The notes under the pieces: generated by a model | The model's database searches: none | What the model was told of the DNA's origin: nothing | The model's input: the letters and a program-made list of their open reading frames with translations, nothing else | Position numbers and translations under genes: made by a program | In this document: in pieces, positions 9,160 through 18,735 of the stretch | How positions within the stretch are numbered: position 1 is the stretch's first letter | Layout: each line of letters begins with the position of its first letter | NCBI GenBank assembly: GCA_030835085.1 | Contig: JAUQWQ010000105.1 | Location: 1 to 34,316 of the forward strand | Source: Ignavibacteria bacterium | GTDB lineage: Bacteria > Bacteroidota > Ignavibacteria > Tepidaquicellales > OLB5 | Reading direction: 5' to 3' | DNA: 34,316 nucleotides

Positions 9160-11328
9160 TTGCCTAAAATATTATTCACAATAGCCCTGATATTTGTAAT
9201 TAATTATGTATTATTTTCCCAAAGCGGATGGATATGGCAGAATCCGCTGCCCCAGGGAAACACTATGAGTGATCTTCAGTTTGTTAATTCCACAACTGCG
9301 TATGCAATGTGTTTTAACACCGTGATGAAGACCACAAATGCTGGCAATAACTGGAGTATTTATTACACCAATCACAATCAGAATAATACTTCTCTTCAAT
9401 TTATTAACGAGACAACCGGATTTGTTGTTAGTGATTCAGGTATTGTCCTTAAAACAGTAAACGGCGGAGTAAACTGGAGTGTGTTATATGATTTCCATCA
9501 AGCGAAATTTCATAAGATATACTTTAGCGATGTTAATACAGGTTACCTGCTGAGATATAACAATTATGGCTATAGAGGTACTACCCTTTACAGAACATCA
9601 AACAGCGGTTTGACATGGAGTGGATTATTAAATGATTCAACAATTGATTTAAACGATATTAAATTTTCTGATCTACAAACAGGATATTTTGGAGGCCATT
9701 TAAATAACATTACTAACAGTAACAGTTATTTAAAAATTTTTAAAACAACGAACGGAGGATTGAGTATTGATTCTATATATACAGGTTTTATATTTCCTAT
9801 TACCAGCATTTTGATCAAGAATAATATCATATTTATTTACGGTGGCAATAGTTTTCCGATAGTTAGCGGCTTAAATTACTCAACAAATTCAGGACTAAAC
9901 TGGATAACAACTGACATTCGTAAAAGTTTGAAGGATATTTCTTATTTTGATCCGTCAAATTTATATGCAACAACTCCAAGCGGAGGAGGCACACAATATT
10001 TATATAAATCCACTAATAACGGCTTAAACTGGTTTAGTATTGGAAGTGATCTTATAGTGTTTGATATTGAATTCATTTATCCATCAGCCGGGGTTGGTGT
10101 GGGCGGAAATGGGGGTGTATACAGAACAACAAACTCTGGTGTTAATTGGAATTCACAGTTTACACAATTAGCTTATTATATTTGGGAAGTAGATTTTTCA
10201 AATACAAATACCGGTTATGCCGCTGATGATGGGGGATTATTAAAAACAACCAATGGTGGAATAAACTGGATAAAAATATTCAGCCGGGCTTTATATAGAA
10301 TGGATTTTATTGATGCGAATACTGGTTATTGTTCTGGTACCGATTCTCTATATAAGACCACAAATGGAGGACTTGACTGGACAAAGTTAAACTATGGTTT
10401 TCTTACACAGCTAAATGAAATTCATTTCATCAATAATAATACCGGTTATATTTTGGCAAACAATTTAAAGAAAACCACCGATGGCGGCCTGACATGGTTA
10501 GACTTCCCTGGTTACGGGGGTTATTATTCAGAATGTTTGTATTTTTACAATGAAATGCTGGGATTCATTGGCAGTTACAATTATCAACTGGGCTGGAGAG
10601 TATGCAGAACTACTAATGGCGGAGTAAATTGGGATTACCAGACTATACCTACAGTTGATGATTACATTTATGATTTTTATTTTGTGAATTCTTCAACCGG
10701 ATTTTTTACCACCACGGGAAGGATATTTAAGACAACAAATTCCGGCAATAATTGGTTCGAAGTATACGAGTATACCGACTCTTTTGGATATTGGTCAGCG
10801 TTATGGTCAATTCAGTTTTTGAATGAAACTGTAGGGTATGTTACAGCATCTCAGGGTAAAGTTTTAAAAACAACAGATGCGGGCAATACCTGGAAGATAT
10901 ATCAATCAATAGCAAATTTTGGCTTTTATAACATGCACTTCACAGATGTTAATACCGGGTATTTTGTTGGAGGTGGCGGTGTGATCGTAAAAACAACCAA
11001 TGGCTGCGGTGACCCAATCGGTATTGAGCCAATCAGCAATAATATTCCGGAAAGTTTTGAACTGTACCAGAATTATCCAAACCCGTTCAATCCGGTAACT
11101 ACCATTCGGTTTTCTATTCCCAACAGTACTAATGGAAAAAATGAGCTAACTTCCCTCAGGGTCTATGATATGCTGGGGAAAGAGCTTACTATATTAATTG
11201 ATGAGCTGCTTTCTCCGGGGGAATATGAAATTACATGGGACGCCCGTAATTATCCAAGCGGCATATATTTCTGCAGTTTGGTTAGCGGAAACTTCGCAGT
11301 AACTTCAAAAATGGTGCTTGTGAAGTAG
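9160..11328 (+). CDS. secreted YCF48/BNR-like repeat protein with T9SS sorting domain
   Basis: 722 aa from a TTG start. The most upstream in-frame codon before it is a stop (9148-9150), and a strong AAGGAGGT (9149-9156) sits only 3 nt away, which is short spacing. Residues 1-20 are a signal peptide. The body (about 22-620) holds about a dozen repeats of the form K-T-T-N-G-G-x-N-W, each followed by a strand pair and F-x-x-x-x-T-G-Y. This is the Asp-box-like pattern of YCF48/BNR beta-propellers; these act as binding scaffolds and often lack enzyme activity. The sorting domain runs 636-722 (Y-P-N-P-F-N-P to K-M-V-L-V-K). The repeat count suggests two propellers or one large one. It is a likely surface adhesin or binding protein with unknown ligand. 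Confidence 0.85.
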   Translation: MPKILFTIALIFVINYVLFSQSGWIWQNPLPQGNTMSDLQFVNSTTAYAMCFNTVMKTTNAGNNWSIYYTNHNQNNTSLQFINETTGFVVSDSGIVLKTVNGGVNWSVLYDFHQAKFHKIYFSDVNTGYLLRYNNYGYRGTTLYRTSNSGLTWSGLLNDSTIDLNDIKFSDLQTGYFGGHLNNITNSNSYLKIFKTTNGGLSIDSIYTGFIFPITSILIKNNIIFIYGGNSFPIVSGLNYSTNSGLNWITTDIRKSLKDISYFDPSNLYATTPSGGGTQYLYKSTNNGLNWFSIGSDLIVFDIEFIYPSAGVGVGGNGGVYRTTNSGVNWNSQFTQLAYYIWEVDFSNTNTGYAADDGGLLKTTNGGINWIKIFSRALYRMDFIDANTGYCSGTDSLYKTTNGGLDWTKLNYGFLTQLNEIHFINNNTGYILANNLKKTTDGGLTWLDFPGYGGYYSECLYFYNEMLGFIGSYNYQLGWRVCRTTNGGVNWDYQTIPTVDDYIYDFYFVNSSTGFFTTTGRIFKTTNSGNNWFEVYEYTDSFGYWSALWSIQFLNETVGYVTASQGKVLKTTDAGNTWKIYQSIANFGFYNMHFTDVNTGYFVGGGGVIVKTTNGCGDPIGIEPISNNIPESFELYQNYPNPFNPVTTIRFSIPNSTNGKNELTSLRVYDMLGKELTILIDELLSPGEYEITWDARNYPSGIYFCSLVSGNFAVTSKMVLVK

Positions 11329-11503
11329 AATAGTTGAAAATAACGCTGTTTCTGTAATTTCCCTTCAAGTGAATCTCACCATTTCACAGTATTGAATAGT
11401 TTTTTTAATTAGTATAATTTATGATGAATTTAGGCAAGTATCTGTAAATTGCACGTAAAAATTTAAATTATAAATGCACATTCTATCGGAGGAGATAGGA
11501 AAA

Positions 11504-11965
11504 ATGATAATTAAAATAACAAAAATTTTCTTCATAATAGCGCTTTTTGCGTTCTTTGCGGGCTGCAATTCAGCAATATATGAAATTGTTGAAGTAGAAG
11601 AGCCTGTTGAAGAAGTAAAAGAAGAAATAAAGGAAGAAGTTAAACCTCCTGTAAGCGAGATAAAGGAGGACCCTAAACCAACTGAAAATAAATTCAGTGA
11701 AAAAACTGTTGTTGCCTACAGTTATTTTGTCCAGCTTGGAGCATACATTGAAGAATACAGTGCAATCCGTATATCAAATACAGCAAAGAACAGGTTAGGC
11801 AGAACTGATATTACAGTAACAAACGTTGACGGTCTTTACAAAATAAGGATCGGAAATTTTAATACAAGGGAAGAAGCAATTGAGTATCTCGATAAAACCA
11901 AGTATGCAGGTTATCGTGATAGCTTTTATGGATCGCTTAGTTATCTAAAGCAGGAAAATAAGTAA
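11504..11965 (+). CDS. SPOR-domain lipoprotein (SPOR1)
   Basis: 153 aa. An ATG 30 nt upstream (11474) is in frame, but GGAGGAG (11488-11494) followed by AGGA lies just before 11504, and this start gives a clean lipoprotein signal (F-A-G-C, C21), so 11504 is chosen. After the cysteine comes N-S-A-I-Y-E, then an E/V/K/P-rich acidic linker (about 28-66) and a SPOR domain (about 73-143: Y-F-V-Q-L-G-A-Y, then L-Y-K-I-R-I-G-N-F). SPOR domains bind peptidoglycan glycan strands lacking stem peptides, typically at division sites. With a lipid anchor this protein could bridge a membrane and the wall. It opens the six-gene SPOR/barrel block. Confidence 0.85.
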   Translation: MIIKITKIFFIIALFAFFAGCNSAIYEIVEVEEPVEEVKEEIKEEVKPPVSEIKEDPKPTENKFSEKTVVAYSYFVQLGAYIEEYSAIRISNTAKNRLGRTDITVTNVDGLYKIRIGNFNTREEAIEYLDKTKYAGYRDSFYGSLSYLKQENK

Positions 11966-12076
11966 TTAATATTACTTGAATTTGAGGTTTTTTATAAATA
12001 ATTTACAACGTAAGTTACGGTTATTATAGAGTAAATTTTTTACATTCAAAAATTTAGTAGGGAATACAAACGGGCT

Positions 12077-12934
12077 ATGAAATTACAACATTTCTGCGCA
12101 GTATTATTATTGGCCATACTGCCTTATTTTTATGGATGCGGATCGGGCTCTTATGATATCGAAAAAGGAGAGTACAAGGATACAACAAAGTATAAATCTA
12201 CAGGTATAAAATTAAAAAACTCCTACAAAATTCAGACTCCCCCGGCATTAACAATTCAGGTCTCAGGCGGTTTAAACCTTGGGATGGCGGAGCTTTCTTC
12301 AAACTTCAATACTGTTTTTGACTCAGCCCAGTTTTCCAAAGGGTTGAATTTTGGTGTAAAGAACGGTTACGGAGTTATGCTTATTGGCAAAATACCTCTT
12401 CATAAAAAAGGGAATGTCAGGCTGAATGTCTCCGGGAATTTTAACAGGTTTACCAGCAGTTTCCTTGCTGAAAAATCCGAATTCGGGGAAGTAGGTTATA
12501 ATGTTTTTGGGATCGGTGTAGGAATAGAAAATTCATTTAATCCAAGTTTCAGACTTAAGCCATATCTTGCAGGTGAGTTCCAGGCAAACCTGATATCCGG
12601 TAAAGCCAATATAACAAGTGTTACAACAGGCGGAACAAGAACGGTTACTATAAAAAATTCATTCCGTATAGGCTATATGATCTATGGCGGTGTTGAATAT
12701 ATGTTCAGCAATAAGATCGGGATGAACTTCGGTATAAAAGTTACAAATTCAAACCAGGTACTTAAATCAACCAAAACCAGCGATAACCCTGATGAGGTAC
12801 CATTACGGGATAAAAAAGATGATACCGGTACTATTGAATTCGGCGGGTTCAAGAATTTTATTTTCACTTCATTCTATTTAGGGATGAACTTGTACATCGG
12901 GGTTAAAGATGTAATTTATAAGTTTAAGAAATAA
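12077..12934 (+). CDS. outer-membrane beta-barrel, lipoprotein-type N-terminus (barrel 1)
   Basis: 285 aa. It has a lipoprotein signal (Y-F-Y-G-C, C21) followed by G-S-G-S-Y-D, like the SPOR lipoproteins around it. Residues about 55-285 alternate polar and hydrophobic positions in beta-hairpins typical of small outer-membrane barrels. Shared with barrels 2-4: an N-F-G-x-x-x-G-Y-G box (about 91-100), G-K-I-P-L-H-K-K-G-N-V-R-L (104-116), N-R-F (122-124) and a G-V-K-D-x-x-Y-K tail. No known family was recognised with certainty. Barrels rarely carry a lipidated N-terminus; here it may anchor or position the protein beside the SPOR lipoproteins. Confidence 0.75.
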   Translation: MKLQHFCAVLLLAILPYFYGCGSGSYDIEKGEYKDTTKYKSTGIKLKNSYKIQTPPALTIQVSGGLNLGMAELSSNFNTVFDSAQFSKGLNFGVKNGYGVMLIGKIPLHKKGNVRLNVSGNFNRFTSSFLAEKSEFGEVGYNVFGIGVGIENSFNPSFRLKPYLAGEFQANLISGKANITSVTTGGTRTVTIKNSFRIGYMIYGGVEYMFSNKIGMNFGIKVTNSNQVLKSTKTSDNPDEVPLRDKKDDTGTIEFGGFKNFIFTSFYLGMNLYIGVKDVIYKFKK

Positions 12935-12942
12935 TTCTACAT

Positions 12943-13776
12943 ATGATGAAAAGGATCTTCGGTTTAAAAATAACACTGATATTAATTATACTTTTTGCCG
13001 CGGGCTCCGCAGTATACGGACAGAAAACACAGATAAAAAGATATATGATAGTTCGCAGTTCCCCTAGCTATACACTGCAGTTTTCAATAGATTATAACCA
13101 GTCACTGCTTGAGCTATCAGGAGCATATAATGATGACTACCAGTCAGAAACTGTATATGATGGTGAATCATTCGGAGCAGATAAAGGATACGGATTAAGC
13201 GCACTTTCGAAGATCAATCTGAACGAACGTGGAAGCCTTCGTTTCACTCAGTCATTAACTTTCAACAGGATCTTATCATATACTTTTGGTGATAAAACCA
13301 CAGTTGCTGATAACGGCAAAGCCAATTACAATTGCTTTACTGCAGGATTAGGGATGGAATATAACTTTACCCCGGCTCATAAATTCAAAATTTTTATGGG
13401 AGCTGAACTGAACGCAAGTATGATAAACGGTGATGTATCAGTCTGGTTTGAAAACAGGGGGCAGCCTGATCCGCCTTACACAGAGTATTATAAAGTGACA
13501 AACAGTTTCAGGCTCGGTTTCGGTCTTATGCTGGGGTCTGAGTTTGTGTTGAGCGATAAGTTTGGTTTGAATATAGGTGCAAGAATACTGAATGTAAATG
13601 CTCTGTTAAAAGAAGCAAAAGGAACGAATGCCGATAAGGAATTCAAGTTAAGAGATGATTCTGATTCAAATCTTAATTTTGCCGGAAATAACAGAAAGAG
13701 TTTTGCTTTTTACAGTATTATGGCAGGTGTCAACTTCTTTTTTGGTGTAAAAGAAAAAAGATATAAACTGAACTAA
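12943..13776 (+). CDS. outer-membrane beta-barrel protein (barrel 2)
   Basis: 277 aa. The signal peptide is about 1-26 (A-V-Y-G-Q), a normal exported form rather than a lipoprotein. The barrel body is paralogous to barrels 1, 3 and 4: S-F-G-A-D-K-G-Y-G, L-N-E-R-G-S-L-R-F and F-N-R, with D-K-F-G-L-N-I-G and a C-terminal F-F-F-G-V-K-E-K-R-Y-K-L-N. It is the most divergent of the four. It starts 8 nt after barrel 1, so the two are likely one transcript. Two consecutive ATG codons make the start ambiguous by one residue. The gene is followed by a strong terminator. Confidence 0.75.
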   Translation: MMKRIFGLKITLILIILFAAGSAVYGQKTQIKRYMIVRSSPSYTLQFSIDYNQSLLELSGAYNDDYQSETVYDGESFGADKGYGLSALSKINLNERGSLRFTQSLTFNRILSYTFGDKTTVADNGKANYNCFTAGLGMEYNFTPAHKFKIFMGAELNASMINGDVSVWFENRGQPDPPYTEYYKVTNSFRLGFGLMLGSEFVLSDKFGLNIGARILNVNALLKEAKGTNADKEFKLRDDSDSNLNFAGNNRKSFAFYSIMAGVNFFFGVKEKRYKLN

Positions 13777-13799
13777 TTTTTCTGTTTTTAAGTTATATA

Positions 13800-13841
13800 G
13801 GTTAGCTGAAATTGTTACTTTCAGCTAACCATTTTTATTTT
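13800..13841 (+). terminator. Rho-independent terminator after barrel 2
   Basis: A perfect 12-bp stem GGTTAGCTGAAA (13800-13811) and TTTCAGCTAACC (13819-13830) with a 7-nt loop, followed by a T-rich tail. It closes the first SPOR1-barrel1-barrel2 unit. The rest of the gap to 13982 is AT-rich and must hold the promoter of the second unit, but no clear TTG/TAnnTTTG pair was found. Confidence 0.9.
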
Positions 13842-13982
13842 GCAGTTCAATTTGAAAAATTTTTGATAAAAATTTCGAGTTTATAACTATTTTATTTATA
13901 AGCAATTATGGAACTATTTTCAATTAACTCTTTACCAGTCTTGTTTTTCTTAAGATTATGGCTTATATTGATTTAGAAAATT

Positions 13983-14405
13983 ATGCTAAAATTTGCTAAA
14001 ATATACATATTAGTTCTTCCTGCAGTTTTGGCGTTTTGTTTTACTGCATGTACTTCAGGAGAATATGAAGCAACAACTTACAAGATCAATTACACTGAAA
14101 AAACAGTGAAAGCTGATACTATTAAAAAAATTACCCTGAACGACGATAAAATAAAACAGGATAAGAACAGCTCCAGCTACAGTTTTGTAGTGCAAATCGG
14201 GGCATTTTCAATTCAGTCAAATTTTGAAAATTTCCTTTCCCGTGCTAAACAGCTGCTTGGAGATGATGTTTATTATGAACAATCCGGAAATTTATTTAAA
14301 ATAAGGATAGGCAAATTCAGCAACAGGATTGAAGCAGTAAAATTAGCGGAAATATCACGTTCAAAAGGATTTACTGACGCATTTATTATAACTAAGAAGA
14401 ACTGA
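13983..14405 (+). CDS. SPOR-domain lipoprotein (SPOR2)
   Basis: 140 aa. The lipoprotein signal ends F-T-A-C (C23), followed by T-S-G-E-Y-E. A lysine/threonine-rich linker (about 30-62) leads to a SPOR domain (65-137: F-V-V-Q-I-G-A-F, L-F-K-I-R-I-G-K-F). It matches SPOR1 in domain order and core motifs but has a neutral-to-basic linker instead of the acidic one. It begins a second unit after a terminator and is followed 8 nt later by barrel 3. Predicted to bind peptidoglycan from a membrane anchor. Confidence 0.85.
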   Translation: MLKFAKIYILVLPAVLAFCFTACTSGEYEATTYKINYTEKTVKADTIKKITLNDDKIKQDKNSSSYSFVVQIGAFSIQSNFENFLSRAKQLLGDDVYYEQSGNLFKIRIGKFSNRIEAVKLAEISRSKGFTDAFIITKKN

Positions 14406-14413
14406 AATTTTTG

Positions 14414-15232
14414 ATGAGAATAAGGACCATATACATTATTTTATTTATTATCATCATACCTTCTGCATTTTTGCATTCGCAGGAAGTAACCAAAGATACA
14501 ACTTACAACTCAATAGCAACAACCAGGATACTTAACATGCTTAAACCCGGCAAAGCACCAAAGGTGACTTTGCAGCTTAGTTTTGATTACAATATAGGTC
14601 ATTTGGATCTTGCTGCAAATGAAAATACTTATTTCAGGAAAGAAGATTTCGTATCGGGTGCTAATTTCGGCACAAGATACGGTTATGGTGCCTCACTTAC
14701 CGGTAAAATTGCACTGCATAAAGAAGGTAATGTAAGACTTAATGTTACCACAGGTTTCAACAGGTTCATGAGTAATTTTGTAATATCTGAATCACCTGAA
14801 GGCAAGGTTAGCTATAATGTATTTTCGTGGGGACTTGGCATCGAAAATAATTTTACACCACAAAATAAATTCAAACCATATATTGGCCTGGATTTTGTAG
14901 CCAGCCTTATTGGCGGAAACGCAACTCTTGCCACAGATTCAGCTGACTTTGATCTTAAGATCAAAAATTCACTTCGTTTCGGGGTGACGTTTAATATGGG
15001 AATTGAATACGCTTTCAATGATAAAGTAGGCTTCAATCTCGGCTATAAGATAACACATGCCAATATTGTAGGTAAAAAATCACAGGCTCAAACCACATTA
15101 AACGAAACATACGTTAATGATGATAAGCTTAAAACCGGTGAGTCAATTCAATATGCCGGATGGAAACAGTTCATGTACAGTTCGTTTTACTTAGGTATTG
15201 ATTTTTATTTCGGTATGAAGAATAAAAAGTGA
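14414..15232 (+). CDS. outer-membrane beta-barrel protein (barrel 3)
   Basis: 272 aa from ATG 14414; a TTG one codon earlier is also possible. The signal peptide ends about F-L-H-S-Q. The barrel core resembles barrels 1 and 4: A-N-F-G-T-R-Y-G-Y-G, G-K-I-A-L-H-K-E-G-N-V-R-L-N and G-F-N-R-F, then V-S-Y-N-V-F-x-x-G-L-G-I-E-N, A-G-W-K-Q-F and a terminal F-Y-F-G-M-K. It starts 8 nt after SPOR2, so they are probably translated from one message. No enzyme motif is visible; it may be a pore or a structural protein. Confidence 0.75.
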   Translation: MRIRTIYIILFIIIIPSAFLHSQEVTKDTTYNSIATTRILNMLKPGKAPKVTLQLSFDYNIGHLDLAANENTYFRKEDFVSGANFGTRYGYGASLTGKIALHKEGNVRLNVTTGFNRFMSNFVISESPEGKVSYNVFSWGLGIENNFTPQNKFKPYIGLDFVASLIGGNATLATDSADFDLKIKNSLRFGVTFNMGIEYAFNDKVGFNLGYKITHANIVGKKSQAQTTLNETYVNDDKLKTGESIQYAGWKQFMYSSFYLGIDFYFGMKNKK

Positions 15233-15269
15233 CCCATTAAAAAATCAAAGTATATTACAAGTTAACTAA

Positions 15270-16127
15270 ATGAGGATACATCCCGCAAAAATAATAATTT
15301 TGGTTCTTATACTGCTTTTTTGTACTTCTTTAAAAGCGCAGGATACTTCTATTACTATAAGGGTAGATACGGTAAAGATACAGAAGACAAAATTAATTAC
15401 AATTGTAAAAGTAAAGACTGTACCAAAGTTCATACTTCATTTTAACGGCGGATTAAATACAGGTGCAATGGAGCTTACCAGTCACAATGGAGGCTTTAAC
15501 CGCGATGATTTTACTTCCGGAAAGAATTTTGGTGCACGAAACGGATATGGATTCAGCTTAATCGGGAAACTGCCTCTGAACAAAAAAGGAAACCTTTGGC
15601 TTGATTTCATCTCAGGTTTTGACAGGTTCCAGAGTGATATATTTGCCAAGAATACCGAAGAAGGAAAAGTCTCATACAATTCAATAAACGGCGGCATTGG
15701 GCTTGAATACAGTATAACTCCAAGTCACAATATAAAGTATTATTTTGGACTGAACCCTCTGTTAAGCTTTATTTCGGGTAAAGCCGAAATTACAAATCCG
15801 GATAACAACAGGGTTGATATAACAATAAAAAGCAGCATGCGAATCGGATACCAGGTTTTCCTGGGGCTTGAAAGTGCAATTGATAAAAACTTTGGATTTA
15901 ACATCGGGCTAAAGTTCACTCATGCCAATTTACTGCTTAAAAAGAGTGAAACTCCCGAGCAGGATGAAAATTCTAACCCTCCAACATCAATACTGGGACT
16001 TAACGACGATGCATCTTTTGAACCAATTGAATTTGCGGGATGGAAGCAGTTTGCTTACTTCAATTTTCATGTAGGAATAAGTTATTTCTTCGGAGTAAAA
16101 GAAATGAAATATAAGTTACCTGATTAA
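15270..16127 (+). CDS. outer-membrane beta-barrel protein (barrel 4)
   Basis: 285 aa. The signal peptide ends about S-L-K-A-Q. The core is closest to barrels 1 and 3: K-N-F-G-A-R-N-G-Y-G, G-K-L-P-L-N-K-K-G-N, G-F-D-R-F, N-F-G-F-N-I-G-L-K-F-T-H-A-N, A-G-W-K-Q-F, and an F-F-G-V-K-E-M-K-Y-K tail. A longer loop (about 228-250, rich in N, P, E, S) is predicted to face outside. It lies 37 nt after barrel 3 and closes the block. The next gene, lon, is convergent, with a shared terminator between. Confidence 0.75.
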   Translation: MRIHPAKIIILVLILLFCTSLKAQDTSITIRVDTVKIQKTKLITIVKVKTVPKFILHFNGGLNTGAMELTSHNGGFNRDDFTSGKNFGARNGYGFSLIGKLPLNKKGNLWLDFISGFDRFQSDIFAKNTEEGKVSYNSINGGIGLEYSITPSHNIKYYFGLNPLLSFISGKAEITNPDNNRVDITIKSSMRIGYQVFLGLESAIDKNFGFNIGLKFTHANLLLKKSETPEQDENSNPPTSILGLNDDASFEPIEFAGWKQFAYFNFHVGISYFFGVKEMKYKLPD

Positions 16128-16194: not shown

Positions 16195-18735
16195 CTATTT
16201 TCTTTTAGCAGATTTTTTACTTACAAACTTCTTCTTAAAAATATGAGCTAATGCATCATCAAGTTTTTCCACACTAACAATATCGAGTCCTTTTTTAATT
16301 TTATCAGATATTTCCTTCAGGTCTTTAACATTATCCTTTGGTATCAGGACTTTCTTGATTCCGCTGCGCTGAGCTGCAAGCAGTTTTTCATTTAATCCGC
16401 CAATAGGCAGAATTTCACCTCTTAAAGTGATCTCCCCTGTCATTGCAACATCGCTTCGAGTGGGGTTGCCTGTAAGTGCGGATATCATAGCAACTGTCAT
16501 TGTTATTCCGGCTGATGGTCCGTCTTTCGGTATTCCTCCTTCAGGTATGTGAATATGAATTTCTTTGCCGTTAAAGAAATTACCTGCCAAACCAAATTTC
16601 TTTGAGTTACTTCTGATATAAGTAAAACCTGCTAAAGCAGATTCCTTCATTACATCACCCAATTGACCGGTTAATGTAAGCTTTTCTTTACCGGGCATAA
16701 CAGATACTTCAATATCCAGTATATCGCCGCCCATGGAAGTCCATGCCAGTCCAACAGCTGTGCCAATTTTATCTTCTTTATCAGCCTGTTTTTCTTTAAA
16801 CTTAGGAACACCAAGGTATTTTTCGATCAGTTCAGAAGTAACGGTCATTGGCTTTTTATCTTTTTTAACTGAACCGTTTGATTTGATCTTATTTAATACT
16901 ATTTCCTTGGTAATTTTCCTCATCAGGGAAGCTATTTCGCGCTCTAGATTCCTGACACCTGCTTCGCGGGTATATTCATTAATAATTTTCCTGATCGATG
17001 AATCAGGGATTATTACCTCTTCGGCTGTAAGACCGTGTTCAGTAAGCAGTTTTGCTACAATGTGTCGTTTAGCAATTTCAAGCTTTTCATGCTCAAGGTA
17101 TCCCGGCATCTGTATGATTTCCATCCTGTCCTGCAACGGAAGCGGTATCTGGTACTGCACATTTGCAGTAGTAATAAAGAGCACTCTGGATAAATCGTAG
17201 TCAACATCCAGGTAATGGTCATTAAATGTGTTGTTCTGTTCAGGGTCAAGAGCTTCCAAAAGGGCGCTTGCGGGATCCCCGCGGAAATCCATGCCCATTT
17301 TATCTATCTCATCCATGAGTATCACCGGGTTATTAGTACCTGCTTTACGCATTGATTGAATTATCTTTCCCGGCATTGAACCAATATAAGTTCTGCGGTG
17401 ACCGCGGATTTCCGCTTCATCTCTTACACCGCCAAGTGATATCCTCACAAATTTTCTGTCAAGTGCTTTTGCAATTGATTTCCCCAGTGATGTTTTACCA
17501 ACTCCGGGCGGCCCTACAAGGCATAATATCTGAGCCCTTGCTTTAACCTCAGCGCGGTTCTTTTTTCCTTTATTTATTGTTTCAAGATTATTAAGTATCG
17601 CAATATGCTCAAGAATTCTTTCTTTGGGTTTTTCCAGACCAAAATGATCTTCATCCAGGATTTCCTTGGCATGCTCTATATTCAGATTATCCTTTGTGTA
17701 AGTTTTCCAGGGTACACTTACCATCCAGTCGAGGAAATTACGTGATACCGTTGCTTCAGGAGACATCGGCGGAATTTTTTTCAGCTTCTGGAATTCCTCA
17801 AGAGCTTTTTCCTTAACATCCTTGGGCATTTTAGATTGCTGAATTGCATCTTTGAGCTTCATGAAATCAGGATCAGTTTCATCCTCGTCATTCATCTCTT
17901 CCTGCAGTATCCTTATCTGCTCCTGCACAATGAACCTTCTCTGGTTCTTCTGCATGCTCTGGTTTATTTTGGTCTCAATATCCTTTTCAACCTTAAATAT
18001 CTCAATTTCAGAGCTAAGAATATCGATCAATTCATAATACTGTTCTTTCAGTGTTGATATTTCCAGCAGCTTTTGTTTACGCTGAATTGAAACCAGAATT
18101 GTGGAAGCTATATAATATAATTTCCTGTCAGGTTCTTTAATGTTCTCATATGCCATTAATGATTCCTGTGCAACACCCCTGTGGTTAGTTACGTAATCAT
18201 TGAATAATTTTGTTGCCTGCCTTATGAGAGCATTAAGCTCGGTTGATTCTTCGATCGGAGGGAATATATATTCAATATCCGCTTCTATAAAATTATTCTT
18301 CTGAAATTTAATAACCTTTGCCTGCGCAATGCCATCAACAAGCACTTTTATAAGATTGTTTGGCAGTTTTATCACCTGTAGGATCTTCGCAACAGTACCA
18401 TACTCATAAAGATTATTTGTTTCCGCTTCTTCGGCTTTATGATCCTTCTGTGTAAGAAGCATGACATACTTATCCTTATCAAGCGCGAAATTTATTGCGC
18501 TTATGGTGGATTCCCTGCCTGCTAAAATGGGATACATCATGTACGGAAATATGACAATATCTCTTAAAGGTACAATTGGCAAAAACTTAGGCAGGTCGTT
18601 TTTGCTGTCAATTTTGGTTTCCTCTGTTTGTTTGAATTCGGCTAATGAACCTGTTTCAGTATCAATAGTTACCGGTTTGATTTCTTTTGAATCAGGGGTG
18701 GTTTCTAAATCTTCGTTATCTTTAAATTCACTCAT
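16195..18735 (-). CDS. lon: ATP-dependent Lon protease
   Basis: 846 aa. An acidic, disordered-looking extension (1-48) precedes the LonN substrate-binding domain (about 50-250: L-P-I-V-P-L-R-D-I-V-I-F-P). Next come a coiled linker (250-300) and the AAA+ module with Walker A G-P-P-G-V-G-K-T (408-415) and Walker B V-I-L-M-D-E-I-D (471-478). The protease domain (about 650-830) has S741 in P-K-D-G-P-S-A-G and K784 in N-E-K-L-L-A-A as catalytic dyad. It degrades damaged and regulatory proteins in the cytoplasm. A lysine-rich tail ends the protein. The promoter candidate abuts the start codon, so the message may be leaderless. The gene is divergent from the Fe-S oxidoreductase gene. Confidence 0.98.
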   Translation of the reverse strand: MSEFKDNEDLETTPDSKEIKPVTIDTETGSLAEFKQTEETKIDSKNDLPKFLPIVPLRDIVIFPYMMYPILAGRESTISAINFALDKDKYVMLLTQKDHKAEEAETNNLYEYGTVAKILQVIKLPNNLIKVLVDGIAQAKVIKFQKNNFIEADIEYIFPPIEESTELNALIRQATKLFNDYVTNHRGVAQESLMAYENIKEPDRKLYYIASTILVSIQRKQKLLEISTLKEQYYELIDILSSEIEIFKVEKDIETKINQSMQKNQRRFIVQEQIRILQEEMNDEDETDPDFMKLKDAIQQSKMPKDVKEKALEEFQKLKKIPPMSPEATVSRNFLDWMVSVPWKTYTKDNLNIEHAKEILDEDHFGLEKPKERILEHIAILNNLETINKGKKNRAEVKARAQILCLVGPPGVGKTSLGKSIAKALDRKFVRISLGGVRDEAEIRGHRRTYIGSMPGKIIQSMRKAGTNNPVILMDEIDKMGMDFRGDPASALLEALDPEQNNTFNDHYLDVDYDLSRVLFITTANVQYQIPLPLQDRMEIIQMPGYLEHEKLEIAKRHIVAKLLTEHGLTAEEVIIPDSSIRKIINEYTREAGVRNLEREIASLMRKITKEIVLNKIKSNGSVKKDKKPMTVTSELIEKYLGVPKFKEKQADKEDKIGTAVGLAWTSMGGDILDIEVSVMPGKEKLTLTGQLGDVMKESALAGFTYIRSNSKKFGLAGNFFNGKEIHIHIPEGGIPKDGPSAGITMTVAMISALTGNPTRSDVAMTGEITLRGEILPIGGLNEKLLAAQRSGIKKVLIPKDNVKDLKEISDKIKKGLDIVSVEKLDDALAHIFKKKFVSKKSAKRK

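Follow-up and report, generated by a model that had tools for sequence, protein, structure and literature searches.

The window analysed here is a 34,316-nucleotide contig (JAUQWQ010000105.1) of an Ignavibacteria bacterium whose assembly (GCA_030835085.1) comprises 4.05 Mb in 234 contigs, and it carries an array in which two lipoproteins with SPOR domains (S1 and S2) are each followed by a pair of small β-barrels (B1–B2 and B3–B4). The array is conserved throughout the host's family, S1 and S2 retain the residues with which SPOR domains contact glycan, and a short N-terminal segment is common to S1, S2, and barrel B1. Tentatively, and with a probability that we place just short of even, the array is read as a lineage-specific, OmpA-like tether between the outer membrane and the cell wall that is made in separate parts.

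Composition and Conservation of the Array

Open reading frame (ORF) calls give the gene order S1, B1, B2, terminator, S2, B3, B4. The original prediction of two SPOR lipoproteins and four barrels with a terminator between them is thus borne out by the ORFs, by Pfam matches to SPOR, and by a hairpin. The features are as follows (positions in the window).

11504–11965, forward strand: S1, SPOR lipoprotein of 153 residues, whose signal peptide is followed by a lipobox Cys (residue 21), a conserved acidic segment, and a C-terminal SPOR domain (11720–11914); a second in-frame ATG lies at 11474
11564–11623, forward strand: S1 segment after the Cys, CNSAIYEIVEVEEPVEEVKE, exceeding the SPOR domain in conservation
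11966–12076, forward strand: S1–B1 spacer with a promoter-like block, ACTTG...TATAAATAATTTAC, kept in most relatives (12 loci aligned)
12077–12934, forward strand: B1, predicted lipidated 8-stranded barrel, with Cys at residue 21 and the barrel at residues 58–274 (12248–12898)
12943–13776, forward strand: B2, barrel whose predicted leader is of the signal peptidase I type, leaving Gln as the mature N-terminus
13800–13830, forward strand: intrinsic terminator after B1–B2, a hairpin of 12 pairs plus a T-run, stem GGTTAGCTGAAA/TTTCAGCTAACC
13899–13982, forward strand: conserved promoter-like block 5′ of S2, core AGTCTTGTTTTTCTTAAGATTATGGCTTATATTGATTTAG
13983–14405, forward strand: S2, SPOR lipoprotein of 140 residues, with Cys at residue 23, a conserved linker, and SPOR at residues 65–136
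14049–14144, forward strand: S2 segment after the Cys, CTSGEYEATTYKINYTEKTVKADTIKKITLND, conserved to about the level of the SPOR domain
14414–15232, forward strand: B3, barrel starting with Gln after predicted cleavage by signal peptidase I (ATG at 14414, TTG at 14411)
15270–16127, forward strand: B4, barrel starting with Gln after predicted cleavage by signal peptidase I
16195–18735, reverse strand: lon protease, convergent, a conserved neighbor of the array that probably does not belong to the module

A scan of 84,980 species genomes returned 14 loci, all labelled as metagenome-assembled genomes of Ignavibacteria or Chlorobi/Chlorobiota. The order S1-B1-B2-S2-B3-B4-lon was found in most loci with sufficient contig span, the exceptions being L045, with no S1 at the site, and L038, which diverges past B2. 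In whole-genome searches, S2 and the array barrels were present without exception in the host's family (15 genomes, three genera), and no orthologue-level barrel was detected among about 230 further genomes from the class. The array is held in two genera despite changed flanks, and the linkage of S2 with B3–B4 and of B1 with B2 is kept in all three; in genus g3, S1 is located apart from the barrels. Because B2, B3, and B4 are 31–39% identical to B1 and the array is kept in every family genome, the run of ORFs is not a product of chance.

The sister family, by contrast, carries one or two short tandem SPOR lipoproteins beside folD (named by eye from sequence) and no barrels there. Given this distribution, and the other barrels of the host, which have no SPOR neighbor, the pairing is a derived feature of one family; the association of SPOR lipoproteins with barrels that had been proposed therefore holds as a conserved neighborhood in the host's family, and is narrower than was implied. 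In the sister family (L048–L066), a peptidase-like gene, likewise named from sequence, also adjoins the SPOR lipoproteins, and the linkers are rich in DTV repeats.

Spacers across the relatives are 8–12 bp for B1–B2, 1–15 bp for S2–B3, and −4 to 46 bp for B3–B4; these short distances suggest two operons, B1–B2 and S2-B3-B4. Most relatives keep the terminator that follows B2, and no terminator was seen in the S1–B1 spacer in the alignment of 12 loci. The 70–85 bp directly 5′ of S2 are strikingly conserved among relatives, and promoter-like blocks precede S1 and B1 as well as S2; these blocks may be promoters. The core upstream of S2 has a single match per genome in four genomes when up to three mismatches are allowed, and a regulon sharing this block was accordingly rejected. 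A short conserved ORF before S2 (ATG GCT TAT ATT...) was also rejected, its ATG being missing in several relatives.

SPOR Domains and the Shared Segment

One C-terminal SPOR domain was detected in each of the two lipoproteins (Pfam PF05036; 30.6 bits for S1 and 38.0 bits for S2, with a gathering score of 21). The S2 model shows the β-α-β-β-α-β fold—that is, strands at residues 66–75, 96–101, 104–112, and 134–139, with helices at 78–92 and 115–127—and matches the solved SPOR structures of CwlC (Z 10.1) and RlpA (Z 9.2). In RlpA, glycan is contacted by Q270 and a basic patch of R302, R309, and R311 (Alcorlo and co-workers, PMC6895207). As assigned by motif alignment, the orthologues of S1 and S2 have the Gln equivalent to Q270 without exception, and the basic residues of the R309/R311 strand are represented by invariant K113 and R115 in S1 and by invariant R108 and nearly invariant K106 in S2. 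The glycan-binding surface, the loss of which had been named as grounds for abandoning the prediction, thus appears to be retained. Furthermore, the host genome encodes N-acetylmuramoyl-L-alanine amidases, the makers of bare glycan.

In three relatives, a third SPOR lipoprotein lies between S1 and B1 (L043:5337–5876, L044:3564–4061, and L046:1100–1618); it forms a separate clade, and its segment after the Cys is not conserved. A phage origin of S2 was considered and dropped after a search gave no match.

The segment following the lipidated Cys is common to S1, S2, and B1 and reads C-x-S-x-x-Y-[E/D/N/K]-[I/V], the individual starts being CNSxIYEI in S1, CSSGEYEV in S2, and CGSGSY[N/D/K]I in B1. 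Among S1 orthologues (n = 11), mean pairwise identity is 0.81 over the first 20 residues of the mature protein versus 0.44 in the SPOR domain, and among S2 orthologues it is 0.63 in the segment versus 0.60 in the SPOR domain; in both proteins, conservation reaches about 30 residues past the Cys. As a background, 40 stretches (798 kb) of one near-complete relative were sampled, with the PorW/SprE region included deliberately: C-x-[ST]-x-x-Y occurs in none of the 37 predicted lipoproteins besides PorW/SprE in this sample. A profile of the S2 segment scores 7.9 against B1 and 6.5 against S1, with 0.3 for the best of 33 other lipoproteins of the family genome, and the three segments score 5–8 against one another, although these figures should not be overstated, given that the motif was defined after the sequences had been seen and that S1 is a homologue of S2. 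Because B1 has no SPOR homology, its copy of the segment does not stem from common descent of whole proteins; it could be a captured lipoprotein leader, or could have arisen by convergence for one partner.

Structure and Duplication History of the Barrels

In the alignment of the four window barrels, F92 G93, G97 Y98 G99, K105, L108, G112, and K277 are invariant. The common core described in the original prediction is therefore real, but the boxes quoted for it vary somewhat: B2 has E-R-G-S and B1 ends in I-G-V-K. The best single-protein Pfam matches fall narrowly under the gathering cut-off (PF13505 OMP_b-brl, 27–28 bits versus 28.7), and PF13505 is matched at E ≤ 1e-3 by 28 of 41 barrel orthologues.

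An AlphaFold2 model of B1, built from a 41-sequence alignment (mean confidence score, pLDDT, 82.6), has 8 barrel strands within residues 58–274 and additional short strands at 49–53 (N-terminal) and 278–282 (C-terminal). Its nearest counterparts among solved structures are a Legionella Dot/Icm-associated porin (Z 16.8), OmpA (15.2–15.8), NspA (14.9), and OmpW (about 14); the OmpA transmembrane domain is matched at Z 15.2–15.4, with a root-mean-square deviation of 3.0–3.1 over about 170 residues. By these scores (Z 14–17), the model agrees with the earlier assignment of the barrels to the outer membrane and points to an OmpA/OmpW-type fold. No further or periplasmic domain is present in the B1 model, the proteins stopping about 11 residues past the last barrel strand, and OmpA_C (PF00691) has zero Pfam matches in any array barrel.

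The lipobox of B1, [hydrophobic]-x-G-C, follows the signal peptide, with the Cys at residue 21 in all B1 orthologues; B1 is thus a predicted lipoprotein, and a lipidated barrel is new relative to the first account. The signal peptides of B2, B3, and B4 end before Gln, a residue reported at this place in many Bacteroidetes proteins that are cleaved by signal peptidase I (PMC5837995).

In the barrel tree, each of the four array positions corresponds to a single clade with good support, indicating that four distinct barrels predate the family. The best tree joins B1 with B2 (support 71/72), an order that is weakly favored; trees constrained to B1+B3 or B2+B4 survive the approximately unbiased test (p = 0.34 each). 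These trees do not decide for or against duplication as a unit, and the caution with which simple block duplication had been put forward was justified. Extra B2-related barrels lie beyond lon in two relatives (L047:4951–6834 and L072:7065–7883) and fall on the B2 side of the tree. Elsewhere, the host genome has about 12 other barrel-family genes with no SPOR neighbor. These include a tandem set beside lptF/lptG (L025:7284–11969, G000:C225; also L073 and L074), which consists of four to five genes and is conserved in the family.

A Possible Outer Membrane–Wall Tether in Separate Parts

In the proposed mechanism, the four small barrels would be OmpA-type transmembrane domains lacking a periplasmic wall-binding domain, and S1 and S2 would supply wall binding in trans. 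The SPOR domains of S1 and S2 would hold bare glycan, which is enriched at division sites, and the conserved segments after the Cys in S1, S2, and B1 would bring the lipoproteins into contact with the barrels close to the inner face of the outer membrane. The result would be a tether that collects the barrels where the cell constricts and joins the outer membrane to the wall at that site. The division site is the expected location because SPOR domains prefer bare (peptide-free) glycan (PMC6895207). We infer the lipidation, complex formation, location, and function of the array from the features described above.

Several observations weigh against this reading. The structural models are of single chains only. 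Sister-family SPOR lipoproteins occur without barrels and most host barrels occur without a SPOR neighbor, indicating that neither depends on the other as a rule. Many members of the main genus are syntenic over the wider region as well, so that gene order is weaker evidence. In addition, OmpA-type wall-binding domains are kept in 15 of 15 family genomes, and the idea that the array simply replaces OmpA_C proteins was rejected on this count. In the sister family, many genomes have no OmpA_C match at all, yet have SPOR lipoproteins.

The more elaborate form of the proposal—a modular OmpA acting in trans, in which B1 and the SPOR lipoproteins share a docking segment and four specialised barrels are gathered on bare glycan at the division site, possibly coupling outer-membrane constriction or the placement of the type IX secretion system (T9SS) to wall remodelling—is unlikely as a whole.

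The strongest alternative, possible although well below even, is that the genes are neighbors rather than partners: the SPOR lipoproteins would be ordinary division-site proteins, the barrels one locus of an expanded OmpW/OmpX-like family whose members act separately, for instance in surface adhesion or the passage of small molecules, and the array would persist through shared regulation or slow rearrangement. Consistent with this, barrels amplify without SPOR proteins, both by lptF/G and past lon, tandem SPOR lipoproteins stand without barrels in the sister family, S1 is apart from the barrels in g3, and three separate promoter-like regions are present. Mere proximity, however, accounts poorly for the linkage of S2-B3-B4 and B1-B2 in all three genera, and for a segment common to non-homologous proteins, the SPOR lipoproteins and B1, that is rare in other lipoproteins.

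A T9SS link, which is a rival or an addition to the tether rather than the principal reading, is improbable. The array would then supply accessory parts around an extended translocon containing PorW/SprE, serving as wall anchor in the manner thought for PorE elsewhere in Bacteroidota. In g3, the tetratricopeptide repeat (TPR) lipoprotein gene divergent from S1 matches PorW/SprE (E = 1.8e-43), and in g2 a PorW/SprE-like gene lies directly past lon, near the array. The PorW/SprE-like N-terminus in 15 of 15 family genomes, CS[ST]F[NR]YKTY, resembles the S1/S2/B1 segment, and five sister-family members start with CN or CS followed by other residues; moreover, T9SS cargo tails are common here. On the other hand, the PorW/SprE segment matches weakly (2.1, versus a background best of 0.3 and 5–8 among S1, S2, and B1), the PorW match itself is under the NCBIfam cut-off (149 of 250 bits), the PorW gene is unlinked in the 13 main-genus genomes, and most PorW-bearing genomes have no array. 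The porW-lon adjacency also occurs in one sister-family genome without the array, and this neighborhood may be old. No curated T9SS component family was matched at E ≤ 0.01 among the 41 barrels, and a PorG-like identity was rejected on that basis; among single window proteins, no T9SS family scored above cut-off, the match of B4 to the PorU N-terminal family being weak (14 of 40 bits). The PorW/SprE-like TPR lipoproteins are at L062:6744–8909, L060:1–1926, and L097.

Finally, it is very improbable that the segment serves to sort or retain lipoproteins instead of acting as a docking site, with S1, S2, and B1 merely sharing the outer-membrane face: it is short, stands directly after the acylated Cys, the usual position of such signals, and has a similar counterpart in PorW/SprE, but a general signal should be common rather than missing from all 37 other sampled lipoproteins, and conservation in S1 and S2 runs too far past the Cys.

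Relation to Known Systems

Fixation of the outer membrane to the wall and its inward movement at division are known mainly from proteobacteria (Pal, OmpA, and Lpp). OmpM is a single polypeptide that is both tether and channel. It is described as a barrel-based outer membrane–wall tether of diderm Firmicutes, a non-proteobacterial diderm group (PMC10628300), and the proposed tether would likewise be barrel-based, with barrels and binders encoded by separate genes. OmpA shares the 8-stranded barrel type and the proposed linking job; in contrast, the array barrels have no wall-binding domain on the chain, a SPOR lipoprotein encoded separately is the candidate for that task, and bare glycan rather than the stem peptide recognised by OmpA_C would be bound. 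With RlpA-type SPOR lipoproteins, S1 and S2 share a predicted lipid anchor, a C-terminal SPOR domain of the same fold, and the contact residues, but they lack an enzymatic domain, have just a short conserved linker joining the lipid to SPOR, and are in a fixed genomic pairing with barrels. The T9SS proteins PorE and PorW/SprE are also outer-membrane lipoproteins of the Fibrobacteres–Chlorobi–Bacteroidetes group; PorE binds peptidoglycan, its C-terminal domain having been reported in complex with a peptidoglycan fragment, and a PorW/SprE relative has genomic and N-terminal links to the array (PMC7192894, PMC10994853). In the searches made, however, the array proteins showed no homology to known parts of the T9SS.

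No SPOR–barrel system was found described in open-access papers, in keeping with the earlier statement that none of this composition was known. If the proposal is true, a two-part tether would be another route to outer membrane–wall fixation, in which SPOR lipoproteins recruit separate barrels, and SPOR domains would gain a role in placing outer-membrane proteins; the eight residues after the Cys would offer a short motif open to test.

Two further genes were observed. Upstream of the array, the product of the gene at 9160–11328 is a repeat protein of YCF48-like type that carries a T9SS sorting tail; its close relatives precede S1 in only some genomes. At L032:3966–5846 (G000:C126), a 626-residue SPOR-domain protein, with an N-terminus that by eye resembles HU/IHF-type DNA-binding proteins, adjoins an HU-like gene.

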